From NCBI GenBank assembly GCA_030537455.1, contig JAUNMR010000009.1:1-47865 (forward strand): a stretch of DNA of 47,865 bases. Direction: 5' to 3'. Shown piece after piece: positions 299 to 12,578 of this stretch; within the stretch, counting starts at the first letter, position 1, and each line of letters begins with the position of its first letter. Position numbers and translations under genes: made by a program. The notes under the pieces were generated by a model that was not told the origin of the DNA, made no database searches, and saw only the letters and a list, made by a program, of their open reading frames with translations. Source of the DNA: Planctomycetia bacterium (lineage in GTDB: Bacteria > Planctomycetota > Planctomycetia > Pirellulales > Thermoguttaceae).

Positions 299-3200
299 GT
301 GCAAGAGAATCGACACAGAAGCATAGCGGCGCTTTCGCTTTTTGCGTTAGGCTTGGCTGCATGTGGTATTCTTTTTGGTTTATCGAGCGTACGCGCGGCG
401 GGTCAGAGCGGCTCGAATGTTCGCGGCAAGGGTTTGGGGGACGCTAAGCCGATCGTTATTGAGGGGAAGGCGGACAAGGACGTGCATGTGACGTCCGGCT
501 GGAAGCTCTTTCTGGTCGGGACGAATCAATATGACAATATGGACGAGGAAAACGATCTTCACTATGCCGTCAAAGACGTAAAGGCCTTAGAGGAGCGGTT
601 TATTGAATTAGGCGTTCCTGCGACGAATATAACGATTCTCACTACGGGCGCACGTCGCAATTTGATTCCCAATAAGAGCAACATCGAATCGGCCTTTGAG
701 CGTTTTATTGCGAGTCTTAAACCAGGGGACTGTGCTTTTGTCTACCTGAGCGGTCATGGTTTTCGCTTTGAACGTGAAAAGCGCACTTACTATGCTCCCC
801 AGGACGTTGACGTAACGTCCAAGTCGTCAATTGAAGAAACGTCGATCTCAATTGACGATATGATGACCGCGTTGAACGATAGCGCCGCGAATCTCAAGTG
901 GATGACGGTCGACGCGTGTCGCAACGACCCGACGAAATATATGGACGACGAGCCGAATCCTGTTAATAAGGACATGAAGAGTATAGGCGTCGCCAAGGAC
1001 TGTATTGTCGACTCCTCTGGTCTTCCGAAAACCTTTATCTTTATGCAGGGCTGTGAAGACGGTCAGTGTTCGATCGAATCTCCGGAACTAGAGCAAGGTC
1101 TTATGACCTACTCGCTATTGGAGGCTCTTAGCTACGACGACAACCCGGTGGATCGGTCGGAACAGTTCGAAATAAAGCTGGTCGACCTTTTGAGCTACGT
1201 GCAGACGCGCACGGAGGAACTAGCGAGTCGTTGTCGCGACCGTTCGAATAAGCCGTGTGTCCAAAAGCCGGCGATAACCAATTACAGCCTTCAAAACGCG
1301 ACCTTTTTAAAGGATCTGCGTGTCGGTGGACTCACGCGCGACCAGTGGCAAGAGGTAAAGAACTTCGAAAACTATATTTCCAATGGCGATATCGAACGAG
1401 CAGAGGAATCCCTTGTAACGATCGCAGGTTTTTACCCAGAGGGCACGGCGTCGGAGAAATACAAGCAGCTCAATGAGAAGCTCCAGGAAGCGAAGCGTCA
1501 GCAGGAAGAGAACGACGAGTTAGCGAAGAAGAAGCAAAAGGCGGAAGAATTCTATACAAACGCGCAGACAGCGTTCAAGGCGAAGAACTTTGCGGAAGCG
1601 TTAACGTATATAGACGAAGCGATCAAACGAGTTCCGGATTCAAAATATAAGGAATTTCGTACAGACACGCTCAAAGTCGGCGTGACGGCGGCGGTTAAAC
1701 AGGCGATAAGCAACCGTGACTTTGAGAAAGCTGAAAGTTTGAATGAACTTTTGTCGGAGCTAGACGCGAATGCGGCGTCGAACTACGAGCGTCAAATAGC
1801 GGCATTGAAGCCGACTCCCCCCAAGCCGGAGACGTCGGTGACTCCCAATCCCCCCGTTACTCCAGACAAACCAAATCCGACGTCCCAGCCAGAGCCGATA
1901 GTAGATAACAGCGGAAACAAAGCGGGCGACCTTAAAACGCTGACAATCGCGGGGGTTAAAGTGAACTTCCGCTGGGCGCCAGCGGGAACGTTCCAGATGG
2001 GCAGTCCGGAGAGCGAGGTAGGACATTACGATGACGAGACCCAACACACAGTCACGCTAAGCAAGGGTTTCTGGATCGCAGAGACCGAAACGACGCAGGA
2101 ACTTTGGGAAGCGGTGATGGGTAAGAATCCCAGTTCTTTCAAAGGCGATAAACAGTTACCGGTAGATTATGTTAGTTGGGGGGCTTGCCAAGATTTTGTT
2201 GTGATACTCAACGCCAGTTACAGTAGCGCGTTGCCAAGTGGTTACAAATACGCCATGCCGACGGAAGCCCAGTGGGAATACGCTTGCCGCGCTGGTACAA
2301 CGACGCCTTTTAACTTCGGTTCCGTCCTAAACGGCGATAAGGCGAACTGCGACGGTAATTACCCATATGGCACAAGTACAAAGGGCGCATACAAAGAGAA
2401 GACGACGCCGGTGAAGAGCTATGCCCCGAATGACTGGGGGCTGTACGACATGCACGGCAACGTGTTGGAATGGTGCGCGGACTGGTTTGGCTCGGATTAC
2501 TACACGAGCTCGTCCGCCACGACTGACCCGGCGGGACCGGGGAGCGGCTCTTCCCGCGTCTTGCGCGGCGGCTCCGGGCGCGACGACGCCGTGTACTGCC
2601 GGTCGGCGCACCGGGGCTACTACGAGTCGGGGGACTGGAGCATCTACTTCGGGTTCCGGCTTGCCCTAGTCCGGGATTCTCAAGCGCAAGACGCTCAAAC
2701 CACAAACTCCACAACTGTGCAAAATTATCCTAGTGACTATGCTCCAGAAGTCACGGTCAAAGCGGGCGCCCTCAAAACGCTGACAATCGCGGGGGTTAAA
2801 GTGAACTTCCACTGGGCGCCAGCCGGAACGTTCCAGATGGGCAGTCCGACGAGCGAGAAATCTCGTAGCTCTAATGAGACGCAACACGAAGTTACGCTAA
2901 CGAAAGGTTTCTGGGTAGCAGAGACGGAAACGACGCAGGAACTTTGGGAGGCGGTGATGGGTAATAATCCCAGTCATTTCAATGGCGATAAACAGCTACC
3001 AGTGGAGCATCTTAGTTGGAACGATTGCCAAGAATTTGTTCAGAAGCTCAACGCCAGTTACAGTAGTGCGTTGCCAAGTGGTTACAAATACGCCATGCCG
3101 ACAGAAGCACAGTGGGAGTATGCGTGTCGTGCCGGTACAACGACGGCATATAACTTTGGTACAACGTGGGACAATAGCAAGGCGAATAACGGCTCATCGA

Positions 3201-3475
3201 CCAAGCCGGTGAAGAGTTACTCCCCGAATGACTGGGGTTTGTACGACATGCACGGCAACGTGAACGAATGGTGCGCGGACAGGTTTGACGAAGATTACTA
3301 CACGAGCTCGTCCGCCACGACTGACCCGGCGGGGCCGGAGAGCGGCTCTAACCGCGTCCTGCGCGGCGGCTCCTGGAGCCTCGACGCCGAGGGCTGCCGG
3401 TCAGCGATCCGGTTCAGCAGCACGCCGGAGTACCTGCGCGTCAACTGCGGGTTCCGGCTTGCCCTAGTCCGGTAG
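299..3475 (+). CDS. Secreted caspase-like protease with two tandem FGE/C-type-lectin-fold domains; likely DGR target
   Basis: The protein has 1058 aa and starts at GTG, with AAAGAGG seven bases upstream. The N-terminus is a signal peptide; LAAC with Cys22 could be a lipobox, or cleavage may follow VRAA near residue 34. Residues about 66-330 form a peptidase C14 (caspase-like) domain with both catalytic residues: His153 in SGHGF and Cys207 in VDACRND. A charged helical, TPR-like stretch (about 345-505) and a Pro/Thr linker follow. Two formylglycine-generating-enzyme-like domains occupy about 541-792 and 821-1058. Each keeps the fold motifs (MGSP, ETETTQ.LW, MPTEAQWEYACRAGT, GLYDMHGNV, RVLRGGS, GFRLAL), but the first cysteine of the FGE active pair is Asp or Leu, so sulfatase oxidation is unlikely. 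The last 47 codons of each domain show adenine-type hypervariation. My inference is a diversified ligand-binding tail attached to a protease effector. Confidence 0.9.
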   Translation: MQENRHRSIAALSLFALGLAACGILFGLSSVRAAGQSGSNVRGKGLGDAKPIVIEGKADKDVHVTSGWKLFLVGTNQYDNMDEENDLHYAVKDVKALEERFIELGVPATNITILTTGARRNLIPNKSNIESAFERFIASLKPGDCAFVYLSGHGFRFEREKRTYYAPQDVDVTSKSSIEETSISIDDMMTALNDSAANLKWMTVDACRNDPTKYMDDEPNPVNKDMKSIGVAKDCIVDSSGLPKTFIFMQGCEDGQCSIESPELEQGLMTYSLLEALSYDDNPVDRSEQFEIKLVDLLSYVQTRTEELASRCRDRSNKPCVQKPAITNYSLQNATFLKDLRVGGLTRDQWQEVKNFENYISNGDIERAEESLVTIAGFYPEGTASEKYKQLNEKLQEAKRQQEENDELAKKKQKAEEFYTNAQTAFKAKNFAEALTYIDEAIKRVPDSKYKEFRTDTLKVGVTAAVKQAISNRDFEKAESLNELLSELDANAASNYERQIAALKPTPPKPETSVTPNPPVTPDKPNPTSQPEPIVDNSGNKAGDLKTLTIAGVKVNFRWAPAGTFQMGSPESEVGHYDDETQHTVTLSKGFWIAETETTQELWEAVMGKNPSSFKGDKQLPVDYVSWGACQDFVVILNASYSSALPSGYKYAMPTEAQWEYACRAGTTTPFNFGSVLNGDKANCDGNYPYGTSTKGAYKEKTTPVKSYAPNDWGLYDMHGNVLEWCADWFGSDYYTSSSATTDPAGPGSGSSRVLRGGSGRDDAVYCRSAHRGYYESGDWSIYFGFRLALVRDSQAQDAQTTNSTTVQNYPSDYAPEVTVKAGALKTLTIAGVKVNFHWAPAGTFQMGSPTSEKSRSSNETQHEVTLTKGFWVAETETTQELWEAVMGNNPSHFNGDKQLPVEHLSWNDCQEFVQKLNASYSSALPSGYKYAMPTEAQWEYACRAGTTTAYNFGTTWDNSKANNGSSTKPVKSYSPNDWGLYDMHGNVNEWCADRFDEDYYTSSSATTDPAGPESGSNRVLRGGSWSLDAEGCRSAIRFSSTPEYLRVNCGFRLALVR
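2534..2674 (+). other. Candidate DGR variable region 1 (internal copy)
   Basis: This covers codons 746-792 of the caspase/FGE gene, the C-terminal part of FGE domain 1. It aligns without gaps to 3332-3472. The copies differ at 32 of 141 bases: 30 at codon positions 1 or 2, only two at position 3, and those two are A/G. Variable codons end in a fixed C or G, as expected when AAC- or AAG-like template codons are copied with adenine mutagenesis. The invariant frame (RVLRGGS, CRSA, GFRLALVR) matches known FGE-type DGR variable proteins. The segment is richer in GC than the genes around it. Confidence 0.75.
3332..3472 (+). other. Candidate DGR variable region 2 (C-terminal copy)
   Basis: This covers codons 1012-1058 and ends exactly at the TAG stop. 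It is the counterpart of 2534-2674, with the same invariant codons and substitutions confined almost entirely to first and second codon positions. Its 3' end (GGGTTCCGGCTTGCCC and on to the stop) is identical between the copies and would be the initiation-of-mutagenic-homing segment. A small hairpin follows at once, as in characterised DGRs, which favours this copy as the active acceptor. Confidence 0.75.
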
Positions 3476-3488
3476 CGTTACCTTCCGG

Positions 3489-3504
3489 GGGCGCGTAAGC
3501 GCCC
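3489..3504 (+). other. Hairpin just after VR2, DGR-style IMH cruciform
   Basis: GGGCGC-GTAA-GCGCCC forms a perfect 6-bp stem with a four-base GNRA-type loop, starting 13 bases after the stop codon. In the Bordetella phage DGR a hairpin with a GAAA tetraloop at the equivalent place stimulates retrohoming. There is no T-run after it, so it is not a terminator. Confidence 0.55.
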
Positions 3505-3550
3505 GCAGTATGGAGGCATAGGTTTGCGTACAGTTAACGGGAGCGTACCA

Positions 3551-3694
3551 ATCCACGTCAAAGGGCTTGGCGGAGCCAAGCCGGCGTGGATTGTGGACGC
3601 GGATACTACCAGCGCGGCGTCCTTTAAAAAATTTTTAGCAGGGGGTTCACCCCCCTGCTAAAAATTTTTCGCCTTTTCGCACCGCGAAAAGGCG
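3551..3694. repeat. Cluster of three strong hairpins
   Basis: (1) 3551-3591: ATCCACG/CGTGGAT encloses GGCTTGGC-GGA-GCCAAGCC. (2) 3627-3669: a 19-bp perfect stem (core AGCAGGGGG / CCCCCTGCT flanked by A and T runs) with a TTCAC loop. (3) 3670-3694: CGCCTTTTCGC-ACC-GCGAAAAGGCG. The second has A/T runs on both sides and could terminate transcription in either direction. The rest of the 608-bp gap up to 4083 holds no convincing gene; a 14-bp palindrome TTCCAGCGCTGGAA lies at 3787-3800. Confidence 0.7.
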
Positions 3695-9816: not shown

Positions 9817-9878
9817 TCTATTCTAGAGCGCGCGGCGCATGAGCGCCATTGCAGTGGAAACCTTTGAGGACGATTGAA

Positions 9879-12578
9879 ATGCGATTCACCGAATTGAACC
9901 GAATCAATACCTGGCGCCATATATTCGCTTGCCTTGTGACGTCGGCGCTGTTCTTCACATTCTTCGTAAGTTTGTGTCACGCAGCCTCTCCCTTTTTGGG
10001 GGAAACAGGTAGTCTCGACGCCAGTTGGCGAGTCTTTCTGGTCTCGAGCGATACCTCGCCGTTCGAGGAGGGCGGTAAGGCGCAATTGGCGTCTAACGAC
10101 GTCGTAGCGCTTGCGCAATCTTTCCTTGACCTGGGCGTTCCCGGCGATGATATTACGGTCGTCAGTTCAAAATCAGTGAATAGTTGCCAAAATATAGGCG
10201 CTCCAACTAAAGAGAATATCGAGAGCGCATTTGAGACGTTTTGCGATTCCCTTCATCAGAGCGACGACGTCTTTGTCTATTTTTCCGGCTATGGCGTTCA
10301 GACGACGGAGACTTTCGAGTCTTTCTTTATTCCCGACGACGTTCAAGTCGGAGATTTAACGGAATTACGCGCCACAAGCGTTTCTCTCAATGAGGCGATT
10401 TCGCGCCTGATTGCCACGCCTGCGCGTTTGAAATGGTTCGCCCTGGACGTTTGTCGCGAGAATAAAACCATCGAATTATCCGAGTCTGACCAGGAGCAGC
10501 TCGTCGGTAGTTTCTTTATCGACGACGACGACTGGCCAGAAGAGTTTGTCTATCTTCAAGGGTGTGATAAGAATCAAGTTGCGATCGAATGGAACGCACA
10601 AGGTCACAGCCTCTTTGCGCTCGCGCTTTTGGCCGCGTTGCAAAGCGACAATAACCCTATCAATCTGAAAGACGAACCAGTTACGCTCGGTAGAATCCTC
10701 AACTACGTCAGTAACGAAACTTTGGAACTGGCGCAAAAATATTCTCGCGCCGAACGCAGACCCGTGCATAACTTACAGCCGTACTTTCGATTCGAAAGGG
10801 GAATCGACCGTACGCTTCTGCATGAATTTACCGTCGACGGCTGGTCGCGTGATGATCGCGAGTTGCTGGATTTCTTCGAAAAGGACGCTCTTGAGTTGCT
10901 CAAACAAGGTCAAGTCGATAAGGTCAACGACGTCTTCGAAGGGGTGACAAATCCAGACATTAAAGAAACCGAAGCATATCGTCATGTTAGCGTGGAGCTA
11001 GAGCGAGCGAAAGCGCACGCGGCGGTCGACACGGTTCGCAATCAGCGACGAGAACGCGCACAACGCGCTTACGATAATACACGTCAGGCTCTTAAAAACG
11101 ACGACCTGCTCGTAGCGCGTGAACAGATCGCACTTGCCGTTAAAGACGCGCCCGAAAAGACAGAATACCGTCAATTGCAAAATGACGTCGACCAACGCGT
11201 CGCGCGCGCTCGTTCCGACGCCTATAAGTCGGCAGTGCAAGCCTATCGCGAACAAGATTACGATCAGGCGGAACGTTATAATCGCATCGCATTGAGTTAT
11301 ACTCCCAATGACGAAACGCTCTTGAATTTGAAAGACCGAATTGCTAAGGGACGCGCTAAAGCTCAGAAAGAGGCGGAAGAGAATGATAAGGCGCTGGTGG
11401 ATAAACGTCGAGAGGCGGAAGAAGAATGTTACTTAGCGCGTACCAAGCTTTCTCGGGAGGACTATCAGGGCGCGCGCGAGCTCGTAGAGACCGCCGTGGT
11501 GAATTTCCCCGAGGACGAAAAGTACGCCGCCTTGTTGGACGAAATTGTAACGCGTCAAGAGGAAGCGGTTCAATCTGAATATCAGCAGGCGCTCATTGCA
11601 TTTGAAAGCGGCGATTTGACCGGCGCGGAAGAACGACTCGCGCGCGCGCTGACGATTAGCCCTGAGGATCAAGATTCTCTTAGTTTAAAGAAGCGCATTG
11701 CGAAAGCACGCGGCGTGGAGGAGCCGAGCGCGCCAGAACAAGAGAGCGAGCCGAAGCCGACCGTGCGTCAGCGTCCTCCACGTCAGCGTGGCGCCTCCTA
11801 TTCCGGTAACGCTGGCGACCTCATGATCAAGACGATCGCTGGGGTCGACGTGAAATTCCGCTGGTGTCCGCCTGGTGAGTTCCTCATGGGAAGTCCTCAA
11901 GAGGAAGAGGAAAGAAGTCCCAATGAAACCTTACACCGCGTCGTACTCACACGTGGTTTCTGGCTGGCGGAGACCGAAACGACCCAAGCGTTGTGGAACG
12001 CCGTTATGGGAGGTAATGCCAGTACGATCCGTGATCCGAAATTTCCCGTCGATTCCGTGAGTTGGTATGACTGTCGGAAGTTTATTGACATAATTAATTC
12101 GCGTAGCGAGTTCGACGAGCCGGGTTATATCTACGCGCTTCCCACCGAGGCACAGTGGGAATACGCGTGTCGCGCTGGCACACAGACGCCTTTTAGCTTT
12201 GGCGCGGAATTCGACTCCGCTAAAGCCAATTCCAACGGTCTCATTCCCTACGGCAATAAGACTAAAACCCGGTCGGTAGGACGTGCCACTGAGGTCGGTT
12301 CCTACCCCGCGAACCGATGGGGTTTGGTTGATATGCACGGAAACGTTTGGGAATGGACAAACGATTGGTATGAATATAACTACTACCAAACGAAGGACGC
12401 CGCAAAAGATCCGACCGGTCCCAGTTCCGGTTCCAATCGCGTTCTTCGTGGCGGCGGGTGGCTTAATTTTGCCAAAAATTCCCGTTCTGCCAATCGTTAC
12501 AGTAGTAATCCGTCCTACAGCGGCGTGCGTTTCGGTTTCCGTCTGGCGCTCGTTGACGACGCCACAGTGGCGCAATAG
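9879..12578 (+). CDS. Secreted caspase-fold/TPR/FGE-fold protein with degraded caspase dyad
   Basis: I chose ATG 9879 (GAGGA eight bases upstream) over an in-frame TTG at 9849, giving 899 aa. A signal peptide ends near FFVSLCHA. Residues about 48-310 form a caspase-like domain matching the gene at 299 almost motif for motif, but the catalytic His is Tyr138 (FSGYGV), while Cys192 (DVCREN) is kept. Residues about 340-620 form charged TPR-like helical repeats (KSAVQAYREQDYDQAERYN and similar). One FGE-fold domain runs from 646 to the end. In it both active cysteines are replaced (Asn and Ser after RVLRGGG). Its C-terminus uses ordinary codons and shows no DGR signature. It is a paralogue of the first gene, probably a catalytically dead partner, sensor or scaffold. 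Confidence 0.88.
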   Translation: MRFTELNRINTWRHIFACLVTSALFFTFFVSLCHAASPFLGETGSLDASWRVFLVSSDTSPFEEGGKAQLASNDVVALAQSFLDLGVPGDDITVVSSKSVNSCQNIGAPTKENIESAFETFCDSLHQSDDVFVYFSGYGVQTTETFESFFIPDDVQVGDLTELRATSVSLNEAISRLIATPARLKWFALDVCRENKTIELSESDQEQLVGSFFIDDDDWPEEFVYLQGCDKNQVAIEWNAQGHSLFALALLAALQSDNNPINLKDEPVTLGRILNYVSNETLELAQKYSRAERRPVHNLQPYFRFERGIDRTLLHEFTVDGWSRDDRELLDFFEKDALELLKQGQVDKVNDVFEGVTNPDIKETEAYRHVSVELERAKAHAAVDTVRNQRRERAQRAYDNTRQALKNDDLLVAREQIALAVKDAPEKTEYRQLQNDVDQRVARARSDAYKSAVQAYREQDYDQAERYNRIALSYTPNDETLLNLKDRIAKGRAKAQKEAEENDKALVDKRREAEEECYLARTKLSREDYQGARELVETAVVNFPEDEKYAALLDEIVTRQEEAVQSEYQQALIAFESGDLTGAEERLARALTISPEDQDSLSLKKRIAKARGVEEPSAPEQESEPKPTVRQRPPRQRGASYSGNAGDLMIKTIAGVDVKFRWCPPGEFLMGSPQEEEERSPNETLHRVVLTRGFWLAETETTQALWNAVMGGNASTIRDPKFPVDSVSWYDCRKFIDIINSRSEFDEPGYIYALPTEAQWEYACRAGTQTPFSFGAEFDSAKANSNGLIPYGNKTKTRSVGRATEVGSYPANRWGLVDMHGNVWEWTNDWYEYNYYQTKDAAKDPTGPSSGSNRVLRGGGWLNFAKNSRSANRYSSNPSYSGVRFGFRLALVDDATVAQ

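Follow-up and report, generated by a model that had tools for sequence, protein, structure and literature searches.

The window analysed here, 47,865 nucleotides (nt) of DNA from a Planctomycetia bacterium (Thermoguttaceae; GenBank assembly GCA_030537455.1), is the start of contig C77 of a draft metagenome-assembled genome (MAG) of 83 contigs and 3.73 Mb that is 90.7% complete. Near its beginning lies a gene for a caspase-like protein with two C-terminal FGE-sulfatase domains, each carrying a variable region (VR1 and VR2) that matches the template of a diversity-generating retroelement (DGR) on another contig of the same genome. The features of the gene and its surroundings are listed below.

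299..3475, + strand: caspase-helical linker-FGE-FGE protein, DGR target; 1058 amino acids (aa), GTG start
299..400, + strand: N-terminal hydrophobic segment with the sequence ...SVRAAGQ (h-region at residues 14-25, from hydropathy); predicted to be a signal peptide or a membrane anchor
512..1267, + strand: caspase domain, Peptidase_C14 PF00656 (residues 72-323)
755..757, + strand: codon of His153, putative catalytic histidine, motif LSGHGF
917..919, + strand: codon of Cys207, putative catalytic cysteine, motif VDACRND
1337..1807, + strand: helical linker (helices 347-503; TPR_2 match weak, below cut-off)
1976..2665, + strand: first FGE-sulfatase (C-type-lectin-like) domain
2543..2663, + strand: VR1, matching the 121-nt template core; mismatches at 22/33 template adenines and 6/88 other bases
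2816..3463, + strand: second FGE-sulfatase domain
3341..3461, + strand: VR2, matching the 121-nt template core; mismatches at 18/33 template adenines and 4/88 other bases
3489..3504, + strand: inverted repeat GGGCGC-GTAA-GCGCCC, candidate DGR target hairpin, 3' of the stop codon
29..139, strand not assigned: ~110-nt repeat, also present near the ends of contigs C16, C79, C43 and C83

The caspase fold is recognised by the Pfam profile Peptidase_C14 and by structure comparison. The initial annotation had described the caspase as catalytically intact, and both residues that it named, His153 and Cys207, were located in their motifs. The hydrophobic h-region and AAGQ are also present in the paralogues C79, C83b and C78b, and the protein is predicted to be exported. 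An enzymatic FGE role was set aside for the second FGE domain, which in an alignment matches only one of the two cysteines that we take to be the active-site residues of FGE 6muj. The predicted fold of this domain is nearest to TvpA of Treponema denticola, a known DGR variable protein, in agreement with the C-type-lectin/FGE fold proposed earlier for the target. FGE itself is a C-type lectin (CLec)-type fold (PMC4891356; here and below, statements from the literature refer to the accessible portions of each source).

Variable regions and their template

Comparison of window 2534-2674 with 3332-3472 reproduces the pattern from which the annotation started. The two 141-nt segments align without gaps and differ at 32 positions, with 17, 13 and 2 differences at codon positions 1, 2 and 3, respectively. 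The only two third-base differences are of the A/G type (A/G at 2536, G/A at 2605), and changed codons make up 20 of the last 40, including one run of 12 consecutive codons. The further claim that the upstream sequence is nearly identical was too strong, as 2401-2533 and 3199-3331 differ at 15 positions, distributed 5/4/6 over the codon positions, a weaker skew than in the variable regions. Within the 121-nt core, 24 of the 30 differences between VR1 and VR2 sit on template adenines. At non-adenine template sites none of the 39 third bases differs between VR1 and VR2, against 46/196 in the flanking domain (Fisher p 1.1e-4), a pattern beyond chance.

The sole RVT_1 match in the genome, from a profile search, is on contig C16 (3232 bp), which carries the following features.

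C16 189-872: HRDC gene (HRDC PF00570, E 8.2e-6)
C16 1009-1998: reverse transcriptase (RT), a 335-aa frame adjoining the template
C16 ~2284-2424: AAC-rich template repeat

The initial annotation had suggested searching for a template repeat, a DGR-type RT and Avd; the template and the RT were found together on C16, with an HRDC accessory gene in place of Avd. Both the RT and the HRDC frames are open. When the RT is aligned with those of four relatives, PIG...SQFFAN and the DD of YxDD are invariant; the signature IGxxxSQ is typical of DGR RTs. The best solved structure is 8ub7, which we take to be the BPP-1 DGR RT, with an E value of 9.5e-42 and the next best at 5e-16.

Over the full 141 nt, VR1 has 38 mismatches to the template, 25 of them at adenines, and VR2 has 31, 20 of them at adenines; over half of the non-adenine mismatches lie in the initial 6 or the final 13 nt. 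In the 121-nt core, which has 33 adenines and 88 other bases, the mismatch counts given in the list above correspond to Fisher p values of 4.7e-11 for VR1 and 3.3e-9 for VR2. With mismatches concentrated on the adenines of a template in the same genome and an RT alongside that template, the proposal that a DGR diversifies the C-terminal domains of the caspase is supported, with DGR membership itself well supported.

A second caspase-FGE paralogue, at window 9849-12578, served as a control. Its core mismatches fall on 18/33 adenines and 33/88 other bases (p 0.10), and 25 of its 39 fixed third bases are changed, compared with 2/39 in each of VR1 and VR2. We also note that its catalytic-histidine motif reads SGYG (His to Tyr) and its cysteine motif DVC, and that its FGE end has no clean template match; it is possibly a pseudo-caspase.

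Further copies, downstream hairpins and relatives

A 21-nt pattern search of the genome returned 13 sites, and 30 FGE-sulfatase and 12 caspase matches are present in the 3.7 Mb. Among these sites and the FGE domains, three further variable regions are clean: C43_a (16/33 adenines vs 6/88 others, p 8.8e-7), C43_b (19/33 vs 9/88, p 2.2e-7) and C78 (17/33 vs 4/88, p 1.7e-8). VR1 differs from each of the other four clean regions at 19-25 of the 33 adenine sites. Regions C79_a, C79_b, C14 and C83b, mismatched at 15-23/33 adenines and 16-28/88 others, were weighed as possible live targets, but their many non-adenine mismatches and, for C79 and C14, the lack of homogenisation give them the look of decayed copies. 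The third-base comparison did not include C83b, and C43 was excluded for the stops in its flank. The contrast of C78 with the C77 regions is weak (p 0.22 for VR1, 0.046 for VR2) because the flanks themselves are alike.

Genes on C77, C79, C14 and C83 form one caspase-linker-FGE family. The variable C78 frame begins at the contig edge, where only the end of the caspase is visible, followed by linker and FGE; the C43 frames, which a stop divides, lack a caspase part on their contig. All of these genes are found close to contig ends or on contigs that are very short. Comparison of nine ends of seven contigs revealed that several share a repeat at ~80-94% identity, and no exact overlap joining broken contigs was seen among them. 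The genes are probably arrays broken by assembly, with the ~110-nt repeat as a likely cause of the breaks.

DGR targets of phages need a GC-rich inverted repeat downstream, with stems of 7-10 bp and GRNA loops, 4-34 bp away (PMC3240598), while a 2026 reconstitution found the hairpin important but no strict requirement for it (PMC12875486). In the window genome GGGCGC-GTAA-GCGCCC stands 3' of VR2 and of the C78 region, and variants of it stand 3' of C79_b and C14, in all four cases ~27-31 nt past the core. The pattern GGGCGC-N3-9-GCGCCC has 5 sites genome-wide, of which these 4 lie just past terminal variable regions. On the 3' side of VR1 the reading frame continues. Among relatives' loci, an inverted repeat of different sequence and similar placement is present in 12/20. 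Where the gene ends within ~10 codons of the variable region (17 loci) the repeat is found in 11, and where the frame continues past it (L194 and L208) in 0/2; L201, which has a repeat, was assigned to neither group. The terminal domain would thus be the main homing site, with internal domains rewritten less efficiently or by exchange. This is in line with Thiohalocapsa, where tandem variable regions are unevenly active (PMC10907252).

Among 60 related genomes, many of them incomplete, the window genome is one of 7 with an RT match at E<=1e-20. Four relatives (G015, G010, G024, G034) have a template/variable pair beside the RT in which the best 60 nt are without non-adenine mismatch, and the first three have an HRDC gene, as found in loci L058, L059 and L060. 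The same-genus relatives G015 and G010 possess their own templates and caspase targets. In G034, two large kinase-nSTAND1-FGE proteins (L061 1565-7774 and 12220-16476) are both variable targets of one DGR. A scan of a wider species collection gave 549 relatives, of which the best 80 were kept as loci; two of these, L092 and L094, are contigs already present among the related genomes, namely G010:C23 and G024:C342, and are not independent of the results there. A template-variable pair is evident in 62 of the 80. When the pair scan was keyed to each base in turn on one strand, pairs appeared in 61 loci for A and 0 for C, with G and T at 13 and 10.

Nine of the 80 loci have a caspase frame, and in four of them caspase and variable FGE are fused, in six frames (L093, L094, two in L117, two in L132); the fusion is also found in L192, L198 and L202. 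In L094 (Pirellulales) caspase and variable FGE are one protein. The target in L093 5088-7364 (Thermoguttaceae, goat reticulum) joins caspase, TIR and variable FGE and has no hydrophobic N-terminus. The caspase-FGE DGR targets of L132 (4319-6562 and 10275-12254; Desulfobacterales HSG2) possess PEGA domains and hydrophobic N-termini, and those of L117 (5469-7436 and 10073-11938; a Spartobacteria MAG) likewise have hydrophobic N-termini. From L117 and L132, the caspase-FGE pairing is not confined to Planctomycetota. In L092 a caspase frame (676-2607) and a variable FGE frame (2611-3588) share one reading frame with a stop codon between them. This same-genus relative is a Thermoguttaceae from goat rectum, and an animal-gut habitat is therefore likely for the window organism.

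In 17 relatives' loci the best template match was always TR15 or TR0. The proteins L192 (G015) and L202 (G008) both have the caspase-FGE architecture and a hydrophobic N-terminus. Their aa identity is 29-53% in each block of 100 columns across the first 700 of the 800 alignment columns, while the last block, which holds the variable region, reaches 77%. Within that region 19/30 template-adenine sites differ, against 2/87 others (p 2.6e-12), and the 117 nt directly upstream hold 23 differences. The rewriting signal in other species of the genus is stronger than that among the copies of the window genome. L192 and L193 (G017), taken as a strain-like pair, revealed no additional divergence in their variable regions and were set aside; the related-genome search detected no RT in G017.

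Proposed mechanism and rival explanations

The best reading of these data is that VR1 and VR2 were rewritten from the C16 template, and we consider it probable that a DGR did so; the variable domains would then serve as changeable sensors for the attached protease. In this mechanism template RNA would be copied with errors at adenines, and the resulting cDNA would replace a variable region, aided by the hairpin behind the last domain. VR1, without a hairpin, was likely also rewritten after domain duplication, either through homing at lower efficiency or through exchange with a terminal copy. The two lectin-like domains could bind a ligand such as a phage, a rival cell, or a host or food glycan or protein. 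Binding might bring caspase domains together or relieve inhibition, and the activated caspase would then cleave a substrate located in the envelope or extracellularly. With one template matching several such genes, the cell could hold a repertoire.

Several observations weigh against this reading. Template and targets are on separate contigs of a draft MAG. GC-rich hairpins were not found after VR1, C79_a, C43_a or C43_b, and the hairpin after VR2, with its 6-bp stem and GTAA loop, is outside the phage consensus. Its DNA fold has a z of -2.05, with 10/200 shuffles equally good; the fold alone is modest evidence and the position stronger. The C79 and C14 regions have 16-20/88 non-adenine mismatches and, among themselves, no significant third-base homogenisation, as would be expected of decayed copies. 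The control paralogue is itself skewed when codon positions 1 and 2 alone are counted (17/32 vs 8/49, p 1.1e-3), and the third-base test therefore weighs more. As pairs keyed to G (13/80 loci) and T (10/80) also occur, a pair alone is no proof. L192 and L193, at 97.8% nt identity, have variable regions identical at 116/117 bases. When the 120 C-terminal residues were searched against 5.8 billion proteins, with scoring of the 7998 candidates sharing most words, none of the 120 matches listed out of 2115 was a same-species variant (best listed identity 61%). The full-length search likewise gave none among the 120 listed of 6353 matches; two of its matches are the window genome's own proteins, on C79 and C78. 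Export is a prediction from hydropathy, and present DGR activity, the ligand, protease switching and extracytoplasmic action are matters that we infer.

The same evidence bears on other explanations. Ordinary divergence of paralogues, or positive selection on exposed loops, would dispense with the retroelement; selection on a binding surface could vary codon positions 1 and 2, as the skew of the non-target paralogue illustrates. The fixed third bases (0/39 vs 46/196), the 2/87 non-adenine differences between the variable regions of L192 and L202 despite their low protein identity over most of the length, and the presence of template and RT make this very improbable. For VR1 and VR2 it is refuted by the template match, provided that C16 belongs to the organism. 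It is unlikely that the DGR, although genuine, is mostly a relic, with variable regions rewritten in the past and now nearly frozen and a caspase family evolving by duplication and recombination. The decayed appearance of C79_a, C79_b, C14 and C83b, the stops between or within the C43 FGE genes, the single difference between L192 and L193 and the scarcity of RT matches among related genomes, many of them incomplete, would fit such a state, whereas the open RT and HRDC frames, the 4-9/88 non-adenine mismatches kept by five variable regions, the homogenised third bases of VR1 and VR2 and the intact hairpin after VR2 would not.

A narrower alternative concerns VR1, which might be no homing target at all and owe its variation to gene conversion from terminal variable regions or to domain exchange among paralogues. 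No other of the five clean regions has as many adenine changes as VR1 (22/33), and the 19-25 adenine-site differences of VR1 from each of the other four mean that no sampled copy is the source. The absence of a GC-rich hairpin after internal VR1, C79_a, L194 and L208, and also after C43_b, points the other way, as does Thiohalocapsa, in which the last of three variable regions in tandem was, at some sites, more frequently variable than the two before it (PMC10907252); we regard copying as possible, if not favoured. Rather doubtful is the view that the variable FGE domains serve in targeting, by selecting what the caspase cleaves or by fixing the protein to surfaces, and not in sensing invaders or switching the protease; TvpA-like lipoproteins may have a role of this sort. 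TvpA is the nearest structure, most T. denticola targets have lipoprotein signals (PMC4891356), and no adapter or NTPase partner was recognised, with no Pfam scan of neighbours, among the frames of at least 80 aa listed beside the gene. On the other hand, caspase-like and TIR DGR targets are read as conflict sensors in other bacteria (PMC10907252), and the target of relative L093 joins caspase, TIR and variable FGE.

Returning to rewriting by the DGR, a bolder reading, possible but less likely than not, is an antibody-like repertoire of secreted, two-armed receptor-proteases, in which one template would continually rewrite the binding tips across an entire family of exported caspases. The last domain, with its hairpin, would be the hot spot, the inner domain would turn over more slowly and store earlier solutions, and extracellular recognition would lead to proteolysis without a cytoplasmic relay.

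Relation to known systems

Cyanobacterial DGR orthocaspase-CLec proteins, like the window protein, combine a caspase-type peptidase with a diversified CLec domain, remote targets and paralogues (PMC7517822). DGR targets are described there as mostly cytosolic, with some signs of membrane placement and secretion (PMC7517822); export is predicted here. The window system differs from them further in its planctomycete host, the HRDC accessory gene and two variable FGE domains per chain. The T. denticola DGR with TvpA (PMC4891356; PDB 2y3c) shares the FGE-type CLec fold, an HRDC gene and a single template with several distant targets, which are exported in T. denticola and predicted to be so here (PMC4891356). 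The TvpA-like targets are FGE proteins for which the accessible text mentions no protease domain (PMC4891356), whereas the window protein has a caspase.

In Thiohalocapsa PB-PSB1, variable CLec/FGE domains, also in tandem, are tied to peptidase effectors, as in the window; the targets are read as antigen sensors, some of them outside the cytoplasm, and one carries a caspase-like CHAT and a TIR domain (PMC10907252). Most of these targets work beside MoxR/STAND NTPases and separate effectors (PMC10907252); in the window, protease and sensor are one polypeptide, and no such partner was recognised among the neighbouring frames listed. The same domain pair is known from prokaryotic metacaspase-FGE-sulfatase proteins (33/671 sequences), in a survey that reads FGE as an enzyme and, in its accessible part, makes no mention of DGRs (PMC3501461). 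The DGR of Bordetella phage BPP-1 likewise has RT, template, variable repeat and downstream inverted repeat, but with Avd, the phage target mtd and a different hairpin, where the window system has HRDC (PMC3240598). Several variable regions within one frame occur in 31/271 multi-region DGRs (PMC6642488).

DGR orthocaspases, tandem variable CLec domains, HRDC with multi-target exported TvpA, and metacaspase-FGE proteins are thus already in print. Their combination in one planctomycete family served by a single template, as self-contained caspase receptors that have two variable domains and are predicted to be exported, was not met in the literature searched. No planctomycete caspase DGR was found there either, including the accessible parts of PMC7159879, PMC8144416 and PMC10053308; most subscription journals were outside coverage, and absence is not proven. 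PADLOC assigns the window protein to a generic caspase model only and the RT to generic RT models only.

In this system a single chain, predicted to be exported, combines a caspase with a lectin-like fold and a variable domain of the DGR type; the pairing recurs in Planctomycetota, in a MAG of the Spartobacteria and in a genome of the Desulfobacterales. The system makes testable the direct gating of a protease by DGR sensors, and also whether the hairpin after the last domain decides which tandem variable region is rewritten, which, if true, would explain the uneven tandem activity in Thiohalocapsa. If the proposed reading holds, one protease gene family could change what gets recognised, an immune-like arrangement so far described mainly in other bacteria.

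We also note, 3' of the caspase gene, an AT-flanked inverted repeat (AAAAATTTTTAGCAGGGGG...) at window 3627-3684 that is common to L001 10-74, the start of the DGR contig.

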